Shown here: piece by piece, positions 31,532 through 34,153 of the stretch
Layout: each line of letters begins with the position of its first letter
Position numbering within the stretch: the first letter of the stretch is position 1
Source of the DNA: Verrucomicrobiia bacterium
GTDB taxonomy: Bacteria > Verrucomicrobiota > Verrucomicrobiia > Verrucomicrobiales > Akkermansiaceae
Assembly: GCA_947462875.1 (NCBI GenBank)
Contig: CANHQJ010000024.1
Coordinates: 1 to 58,527 of the forward strand
Direction of reading: 5' to 3'
DNA: 58,527 nt
The notes under the pieces: generated by a model
The model's input: the letters and a program-made list of their open reading frames with translations, nothing else
The model's database searches: none
What the model was told of the DNA's origin: nothing
Position numbers and translations under genes: made by a program

Positions 31532-33067
31532 ATGATTACTCGAATCTATTCAGCCGCCTTGCGCGGGGTCGATGCGCAAGAAGTCGAAGTGGAGGTGAAT
31601 GCCTGGGGCTCAGAAAAGCCTCAAATTTTTGTCGTCGGCTTGCCGGATGCCGCCGTGCGGGAGTCCATCCAGCGCGTGACCTCCGCCATCATCGCCTCGG
31701 CCCTGCCGTTCAGCGATGGCAGCAAGACCGTCAACCTCGCCCCTGCCGATGTGAAAAAGGAAGGCCCGTCCTTCGATCTGCCGATCGCTCTGGCGATGGC
31801 CTCCGCCTGCGCGGAGCTGGCCCTCCCCGCGGATGATTGTTACGTCGCGGGCGAGCTCGCTCTGGATGGCACGGTGCGACCGATCAAAGGCGCGCTCCCC
31901 ATCGCGCTCGAAGCCCGGGCACGTGGGAAAAAACGCCTCATTGTACCTGCGGCGAATGCGCCCGAGGCGGCGATCGTGGAAGGCATCGAAGTCTATGGCG
32001 TGGACTCCCTGCACCAGACCTGGGGATTTCTCGCGGGGACCGAACCCTTGGCACCCTGCGTGATCGATCGACAAGCGTTTTTTGAATCGCATCGGCACTA
32101 CGATGTCGATTTCGAGGAAGTCAAAGGCCAGTATCAAGTGAAGCGTGCCCTCGAAATCGCGGCCACCGGGGGACACAATATTTTAATGGTCGGCCCGCCC
32201 GGCACCGGCAAGTCCATGCTCGCGAAACGACTGCCCAGCATCCTGCCGGACATGAGCGAGGAGGAGTCGATCGAAACGACAAAAATCCACTCCATCGCCG
32301 GCTACCTCGATCCGAAACGTTCCTTCATCACCACCCGCCCCTACCGCGCCCCTCACCACACGATTTCCGATGCCGGACTGCTCGGTGGCGGCACCAACCC
32401 CGGCCCGGGCGAGGTCTCGCTCTCGCACCATGGCCTGCTCTTTCTCGATGAACTTCCCGAGTTCCGCCGACAAACGTTGGAGGTGATGCGGCAGCCGCTG
32501 GAGGATGGTCACGTGACAATCTCGCGCGCGGCTGGCTCTCTCACCTTTCCCTCCCGCTTCATGCTGGTAGCGGCGATGAATCCGTGTCCTTGCGGTTACT
32601 ACGGCGATGCGAAACGCGAGTGCCGCTGTGGCTCGCGGGCGATTGAAAAGTATCGGCAGAAAATTTCCGGCCCCTTGTTGGATCGGATCGACATCCATGT
32701 GGAAGTGCCGCTGGTTGATTTCAAAGAACTCTCCTCGACCGAGCTCGGCGAAAAGTCCTCCACCATCCGCGCACGGGTAGCCGCCGCCCGCGCGGTGCAG
32801 ACGAAACGTTTCCAAAAAAACAAAGGCGTCTCCACCAATGCCGCGATGTCCGCGAAACTCGTGCGCGAGCACTGCGCGCTCGATGCCACCAGCACCAGCT
32901 ACCTCGAGCACGCGATGGAATCGATGAACTTCTCCGCTCGCGCCCACGACCGCATCCTCAAAGTGGCGAGAACCATCGCCGACCTAGAGGGCAGCGATGC
33001 GATCCAGCCCCAACACATCCTCGAAGCGATCCAGTATCGTTCGTTGGATCGGAAGTTGTTTTCGTGA
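31532..33067 (+). CDS. comM: ComM/YifB family Mg-chelatase-like AAA+ ATPase
   Basis: 511 residues. ComM is a hexameric helicase that promotes branch migration during natural transformation. An N-terminal Lon-protease-like domain ([34 protein letters not shown]) is followed by the AAA+ core with Walker [10 protein letters not shown] (about 220-228), Walker [11 protein letters not shown] and the zinc-finger-like [10 protein letters not shown]...CRC. The end [14 protein letters not shown] is complete. Uniquely, the last 96 bases have a second, diverged copy at 33918-34013, beyond dinD. Confidence 0.95.
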
Positions 33068-33088
33068 AACTCATCATCACCTCTCGCC

Positions 33089-33904
33089 ATGAGCAATCAA
33101 ATCACAGCCTTCGAATCGATACGCCGGACAAACCCGGCGGGCAACGAATTCTGGTCCAGCCGGGACTTTTCCAAGGTTCTTGGATACGCTGATTACCGGA
33201 ATTTCCAGTCCGTCATCGAATCCGCCCGCACCGCCTGTTTCAACAGCGGCCAGCGGGTGGAGGACCATTTCGTTGAGGTCACCGAAATGGTCGAGATCGG
33301 CAGTGGGGCGCAGCGTCGTCTGAAGACCGTGATGATGTCGCGTTACGCCTGTTACCTCGTCATTCAGAATGCAGATCCATCGAAGGAAATTGTCGCCCAC
33401 GGCCAGACTTACTTTTCCATTCAGACCCGGCGGCAGGAACTCAGCGATGCGGAAATCGAGGAAAAACGCCGCCTGTCCATTCGCTCCGAACTCAAGAAAC
33501 ACAACAGCCAGCTTGCCGATGCCGCGAAGGATGCGGGTGTCATCGAACCGCGCGACTACGCCATCTTCCAGAACCATGGCTACATGGGTCTCTATGGTGG
33601 CCTCGGAGCGCAGGACATCCATCGCCGCAAAGGTCTGAAGAAGGGGGATCAAATCCTCGATCACATGGGCAGCACCGAACTGGCCGCCAATCTCTTCCGC
33701 GCAACCCAGGCGGAGGAAAAACTTCGACGTGAAAAAATCACTGGCAAGGATAAGGCGAATAAAGCCCACCGCGAAGTCGGAGCCAAAGTCCGCCAAACGA
33801 TCAAGGAACTCGGCGGCACTATGCCAGAAGAGCTTCCCACGGCGGAGAGCATCAAGAAACTCGAATCGAAGGCGCGCAAAGCACTGAAGAAGCCGAATAA
33901 TTGA
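33089..33904 (+). CDS. dinD: DNA damage-inducible protein D (DinD), inserted behind comM
   Basis: 271 residues. The BRO-N-like front ([57 protein letters not shown]) and the DinD tail ([39 protein letters not shown]) are recognisable. In E. coli DinD is SOS-induced and inhibits RecA filament activities. No LexA box is visible before this gene. Its start lies 21 bases after comM and its stop 13 bases before a second comM 3' end, so it occupies a 946-base duplication interval. It is complete. Confidence 0.93.
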
Positions 33905-34013
33905 TTCCGAAGCCCACACCATCGCCGACCTCGTCGGCTGTGAAAAGATCCAAAGCGAACACATCCTCGAAGCGATCCAGTACCGTTCGCTGGACAGGAA
34001 ACTGTTTTCCTAA
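33905..34013 (+). pseudogene. comM: Detached comM 3' end (last 32 codons), probable relic of insertion
   Basis: From 33918 to the TAA at 34011-34013 this stretch encodes [15 protein letters not shown] then [16 protein letters not shown], parallel to the comM terminus [15 protein letters not shown] and the same end. The 96 bases align without gaps to 32972-33067 at about 76 of 96 positions by eye, with a 25-base identical core (33012-33036 and 33958-33982). No start codon or upstream comM frame exists here. The junction is 5-13 bases after dinD. Confidence 0.88.
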
Positions 34014-34153
34014 AACTCTGGCGCGCCCCTGTAGGTGGCAGACGCATGGGGAAACCGCCCTTCCCCGTCGCAACGCGCTGATGAATCTTCTTTGCCAGGT
34101 TTTTTTCACCGCAGCTTCATCATGATTTCACAGTGCCCTGTCACCCTCACGGC

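Follow-up and report, generated by a model that had tools for sequence, protein, structure and literature searches.

The window, the whole 58.5-kb stretch of DNA that was analysed, contains a dinD gene lying between the complete comM gene and a second, partial copy of the comM 3' end. The locus is made up of the following features.

31532..33067, plus strand: comM, complete host gene of 511 aa (family and domain scan)
32972..33072, plus strand: first repeat copy, the 3' end of the comM in use plus 5 bases (ungapped comparison)
33068..33088, plus strand: 21-bp spacer from the comM stop to the dinD start (sequence)
33089..33904, plus strand: dinD, the inserted gene (Bro-N domain; NF008573; PADLOC candidate PDC-S13)
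33905..33917, plus strand: 13-bp joint from the dinD stop to the second comM end (sequence)
33918..34018, plus strand: second repeat copy, the leftover comM end, with its coding part to 34013 (ungapped comparison)

The initial annotation of this DNA had described the comM end as duplicated at a 946-bp offset and about 79% identity, with both copies in frame with a stop codon. This was confirmed. Positions 32972-33067 and 33918-34013 are identical at 76 of 96 sites (79%) without gaps, and both copies are open and stop-terminated, the first by TGA and the second by TAA. The repeat continues for 5 bases beyond the stop codons, to 101 nt (81/101; 80%), while upstream of its start the similarity drops to background (4-5/30). 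In a comparison of the second copy with the whole window, this match (81/101) was followed by a runner-up of 45/101 on the plus strand and a best match of 45/101 on the minus strand, against a scan background with a mean of 25.7 and s.d. of 4.6 (of 101), which excludes a chance similarity of the tails. A 25-base identical core, to which the annotation had also pointed, is real, but carries little weight because the region is conserved in comM throughout the genus.

The second tail copies the last 32 codons of comM. Its codons differ from those of the first tail by 10 silent changes (counting the stop pair as silent) and 6 that change the residue. It has no start codon and its frame differs from that of dinD; it is a leftover and no gene. 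ComM itself is complete over its 511 aa, with the Mg_chelatase, ChlI and C-terminal domains all present. Between the repeats, dinD is the only gene-sized reading frame with a family match, and neither the list of open reading frames nor the family scan of this interval contained a recombinase gene. A search of the ends of the dinD unit for inverted repeats and promoter or terminator signals returned nothing convincing.

E. coli DinD is induced by DNA damage and acts on RecA. The window gene, placed by the annotation between the two tails, is a true dinD, set 21 bp behind the stop of comM and 13 bp ahead of the second tail: its 271-aa product contains a Bro-N domain and matches the NCBIfam model NF008573 over residues 3-268 at 397 bits (cut-off 242). 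It also matches PDLC04919 of the PADLOC system PDC-S13 (E 1.2e-116), which is a candidate for defence only. Family scans gave Bro-N, DinD and candidate-defence models and nothing else, and PDB sequence searches with the window DinD returned no relative.

An AlphaFold model of the window DinD (pLDDT 83.5, pTM 0.57) matched Deinococcus DdrC both in Foldseek (E 7e-6; TM 0.38/0.46) and in VIA (Z 15.2 over 198 residues, rmsd 10.3; next unrelated entry 6.3). In its predicted structure, DinD is thus similar to DdrC (8u0g, 7udi, 7qvb) in overall fold, and the high rmsd probably reflects a different placement of the domains. No nuclease stood out among the top 50 matches of either Foldseek or VIA. DdrC of Deinococcus radiodurans is described in PMC5436757 as binding DNA, annealing strands and circularising linear DNA.

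comM ends in related genomes

According to the annotation, an insertion had taken place at the 3' end of comM without damage to ComM, and relatives from the same genus bear this out. Genomes G001, G002, G003 and G004 have a single comM tail and no Bro-N gene downstream (4.5-17 kb examined). The same holds for G007 and G008, where the contig ends after only 0.95 and 0.86 kb. G009 also has a single tail, followed by DNA that by eye resembles a decayed Bro-N gene, and a PF02498 search of this genome detected none; in G005, comM is present as a fragment only. Relatives of the genus without a gene of this kind behind comM, which the annotation had asked to be sought, have one tail. G006, whose ComM is 97% identical to that of the window, is built in the same way, but its Bro-N gene is another one, of 282 aa, and starts 18 bp after comM; the leftover tail begins at residue 474 and already contains an internal stop.

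Across the order, Bro-N (PF02498) was found in 84 of 386 genomes at 113 places, 86 of which were read as loci (26 with 1.5-kb flanks and 60 with longer flanks). In nine of these 86 a Bro-N gene follows the 3' end of comM and has the strand of comM (G000, G006, G246, G270, G305, G329, G337, G357 and G385), with 6-21 bp between the comM stop and the Bro-N start (in G270 the Bro-N gene is broken and the distance to its ATG was counted by eye). Judged by eye from their first residues, the Bro-N proteins at comM ends fall into three subtypes. A further comM tail lies directly behind the Bro-N gene in six of the nine, beginning at residue 481 in G000, 474 in G006, about 473 in G246, 453 in G270 and G357, and 428 in G305. 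There is accordingly no constant crossover site, and the spread of the starts is evidence against a fixed recombination site. In G329 and G337 no comM tail lies directly behind the Bro-N gene; G385 has a broken Bro-N gene, and its comM end sits at the end of the contig.

Several of these loci carry details of their joints. Leftover tails are decaying through stops or deletions in G006, G246 and G357. G246 and G385 share a nearly identical 19-bp spacer between comM and the Bro-N gene. In G305 the comM end beside the Bro-N gene is itself a leftover piece, with the whole comM on another contig, which indicates that the sequence, rather than the function of ComM, is what counts. Here the Bro-N stop and the comM sequence share TAAG, which may be a microhomology joint. 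The annotation had also suggested looking for other cargo between comM tails, and this exists: Bro-N genes in G006, G246, G270, G305 and G357, and a Fic gene (PF02661) in G266 (L224, 1696-2703), which has a complete comM 92 bp upstream and a comM tail from residue 468 behind it. The architecture is therefore not exclusive to Bro-N genes.

More widely, 14 of 71 comM loci from 69 genomes had a further comM piece in the available downstream DNA; several of these pieces, kilobases away or starting near residue 350, are other events. In five genomes (G015, G042, G069, G081 and G084; L041-L050) comM is split by 39-208 kb near residues 350-356, the split site being the MNPCPCG motif (residue 349). 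Both joints in G042 have 17 bp in common (by eye); a gene for a large serine recombinase (PF00239, PF07508) overlaps the 5' joint of G069. Separately, G305:C174 (L126, L268), G329:C69 (L157, L267) and G291:C206 (L210, L269) each contain several comM 3' pieces in a row. Many of these pieces begin near residue 319 or 349, other DNA separates them, and they give the impression of repeated hits on comM.

The large elements that interrupt comM near residue 350 are a different case from dinD. Tn6022 and Tsy, as presented in PMC10293859, target comM at its Walker B region; they share with the dinD unit the choice of comM and the comM pieces at their flanks, but they use a Tn7-like transposase together with TnsF, or else a tyrosine recombinase, and split comM, whereas the dinD unit has no such recombination gene and leaves comM whole. 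The Tn6022 family, to which the annotation's comparison with Acinetobacter islands leads, uses another site (Walker B) and another mechanism, a transposase (PMC10293859). One could still picture dinD as the remnant of a larger site-specific element, a prophage or island with its attachment site in comM, that lost all but one gene. Such a history would agree with the frequent targeting of comM by these elements, with the recombinase at the G069 joint and with the 14 downstream pieces. We consider it unlikely: the leftover tails next to Bro-N genes have their starts at varying residues (428-481) and not near residue 350, a Bro-N gene and nothing else would have had to survive at each of six loci, and hsdM and fic show the same pattern.

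Duplicated ends of other genes

Repeatedly, a Bro-N or DinD gene has a complete gene on one side and a partial duplicate of that gene's end on the other; the genes concerned are comM, hsdM, fic and a family-20 glycosidase gene. The duplicated-end pattern is thus real and more general than first noted, while the history attached to it by the annotation is only partly borne out. In L125, L134, L140 and L144 a Bro-N gene lies between hsdM and hsdS (domain matches identified hsdM in L125 and L134, through N6_Mtase and HsdM_N, and hsdS in L125 and L144, through Methylase_S; the others were named by similarity). In L134 the stop of hsdM and the start of dinD overlap in the bases ATGA. At fic (L120, L128, L142 and L153; PF02661, L120 by similarity), a remnant precedes the Bro-N gene and the intact fic follows it. 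The glycosidase case involves the end of a convergent gene (L124, PF00728), and the same site is used in G317 and G395. The intact gene always adjoins the Bro-N gene in these named hsdM, fic and glycosidase cases. The repeat copies in G372 are identical over 69 bp. The fic remnants and intact ends did not separate into two groups. A search for an empty site of the G372/G317/G395 insertion with both of its flanks located the arsR side in other genomes, without the glycosidase side next to it; the glycosidase query was a piece of 35 aa, which made this search a weak one.

To count such repeats, the upstream flank of each gene was compared with its downstream flank by blastn. Flanks of 1.2 kb revealed a direct repeat at 28 of the 81 Bro-N loci that could be tested, as against 3 of 39 control ORFs, one of the three being itself in a comM locus. 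With 300-bp flanks and full-length genes, the counts were 18/64 and 2/160, respectively (Fisher p 2.7e-9, a value that overstates independence because some loci are related: the four fic cases, L124/L129 and L317/L318). Some of the repeats are short (27, 31 and 38 bp) and may be dispersed repeats. The remaining 46 of the 64 full-length Bro-N genes had no repeat within 300 bp, and among Fic genes of one genus (30 best matches taken) only 1 of 29 testable had one.

DinD loci outside the order had a repeat in 6 of 28 cases (the 30 loci of a phylum-wide DinD search minus the window and G008, which had already been counted), the six including two orthologues and one repeat of 31 bp. For DinD of the window type, 29 loci from named records and one viral contig were compared with 1.5-kb flanks, excluding 8 partial loci; eight had a repeat, three of them at loci counted before. 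The dinD gene of E. coli K-12, between yicC and yicG, has no flanking repeat.

DinD of the window subtype sits behind many different genes (labelled by eye), and two of its relatives are in viral contigs, one of them partial. The annotation's suggestion of a functional tie to ComM is difficult to uphold, given that the same subtype occurs behind so many genes and that hsdM, fic and other ends are used alike. In most full-length Verrucomicrobiota loci the subtype proteins are 77-91% identical, compared with mostly 53-76% for ComM between genera; by sequence comparison, this is in line with recent transfer.

Relationship of the two tails

A tree of the comM genes of the genus was built with the present tail, the second tail and the comM body as separate rows. 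The two window tails were rejected as sisters (p-AU 0.0036; 96 bp), and with this a simple copy within the lineage is rejected for the window. The tail behind dinD groups with comM of G001, another species (support 91/80). Grouping the body with the present tail was not rejected (p 0.09), whereas grouping it with the tail behind dinD was (p 0.02, in a test that was chosen after the distances were known and rests on 96 bp). A foreign 3' end on the window comM was sought as a drop in identity along the gene, and no drop was seen. The annotation's sequence of events, a new tail on comM and the old one displaced to behind dinD, finds no support in this tree, where the tails are not sisters and the second one goes with G001, although 96 bp are too short for a firm verdict.

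The two tails of G006 are sisters (85/82), so that a copy within the lineage is not rejected there, and those of G266 are about 90% identical. In G000, G270 and G357 the tail now on comM is, by plain identities, as similar to relatives as the comM body, and does not look foreign. Histories may differ among loci.

The main rival explanation is a long target-site duplication, in which a bare Bro-N gene would land between staggered breaks some 50-220 bp apart, fill-in would copy the gene end, and the copy left unjoined would decay. The geometry it predicts is identical to that observed. The copies in G372 that are identical over 69 bp, the sister tails of G006, the similar tails of G266 and the decay of leftover copies in G006, G246 and G357 all agree with it. 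The window tails, on the other hand, are not sisters, the unit has no transposase, and neither the ATGA overlap nor the shared comM/Bro-N spacer would be expected of a bare gene landing at random. On balance we regard this explanation as possible but somewhat improbable.

Possible routes of insertion

We favour, with a probability slightly better than even (about 0.55), the reading that dinD arrived as a single-gene insertion at the 3' end of comM, through homology at one gene end, with the second tail as its footprint. The incoming DNA would carry a gene end followed by a Bro-N gene, either as a linear molecule or as a circle entering by one crossover. Its gene end would pair with the resident copy, so that homology would be needed to one neighbour only, and the far side of the Bro-N gene would be attached, with no long homology, within or next to that gene end. 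As a result, the gene end would be present twice and the host gene would never be broken.

The ATGA overlap in L134 and the 19-bp spacer shared by G246 and G385 suggest that gene end and Bro-N gene travel together. From the varying boundaries, and from the G305 joint at which the Bro-N stop overlaps comM, it would seem that the other side was joined through little homology. The nine comM loci among the 86, the excess of flanking repeats over control ORFs and the non-sister tails of the window also speak for this reading. Because DinD is predicted to fold like DdrC, an annealing and circularising protein, it may itself favour the joining, which is speculative. This mechanism is inferred, and the newcomer copy may differ between loci. 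The sister tails in G006, the identical copies in G372 and the non-foreign tails in G000, G270 and G357 count against this reading, as do the repeat-free majority of Bro-N genes, E. coli K-12 dinD and the Fic gene at comM in G266.

A bolder form of the one-gene insertion would make DinD and Bro-N genes self-spreading single-gene elements of a new type, with neither recombinase nor nuclease. The DdrC-like protein would anneal and bridge DNA ends, so that its own gene enters at the ends of genes homologous to its current neighbour, leaves a partial gene end as footprint, and seeds the hsdM-dinD-hsdS and dinD-fic layouts. We hold this to be improbable.

The closest known architecture appears to be that of the mORFs of fungal mitochondria, reported from Glomus atp6, atp9, cox2 and nad3 and from Allomyces atp6 (PMC3630166). 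As portrayed there, mORFs and the dinD unit both keep the host gene usable, have a diverged second 3' end behind the ORF and occur at several host genes. However, mORFs encode LAGLIDADG or GIY-YIG endonucleases, neither of which the family scans recognised in DinD, and they displace the native end; for the Bro-N units the direction may vary, the window tail tree, with its 96 bp, pointing the other way. Bro-N units are also bacterial and make use of 5' ends (fic) as well, unlike the mitochondrial mORFs described (PMC3630166). By analogy, a homing event could be proposed in which the Bro-N protein or a partner cuts insert-free gene ends and repair copies in the gene end together with the Bro-N gene, matching the mORF hybrid order of inserted gene end, ORF and native end behind (PMC3630166). 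This seems very unlikely, since the window DinD gave only Bro-N, DinD and candidate-defence models, its clear fold match is a DNA-binding and annealing protein, and DinD proteins that closely resemble one another are encoded beside unrelated gene ends.

With the duplicated end as a footprint, insertions of one gene can be identified and counted in bacterial genomes. It suggests how single candidate defence genes (DinD, other Bro-N and at times Fic) may arrive behind housekeeping genes without breaking them, and the same route is suggested into restriction-modification operons. In many related bacteria the genes are placed as though they had spread by entering at gene ends, leaving the host gene unbroken. 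Should the DinD protein indeed drive the joining, it would represent a mobile gene with neither recombinase nor nuclease. A literature search for duplicated gene ends around DinD or Bro-N genes found none, most subscription papers being out of reach.

Two further settings were seen among the Bro-N loci. In L085 (G008), short dispersed repeats at 985-1011 and 2299-2325 surround a Bro-N gene and a small neighbour gene, by eye of the GxxExxY type, in a setting that resembles a type I restriction operon. In L087 (G061) and L089 (G059), Bro-N genes stand beside helicase genes that look CRISPR Cas3-like by eye, with repeated DNA near the start of the helicase gene.
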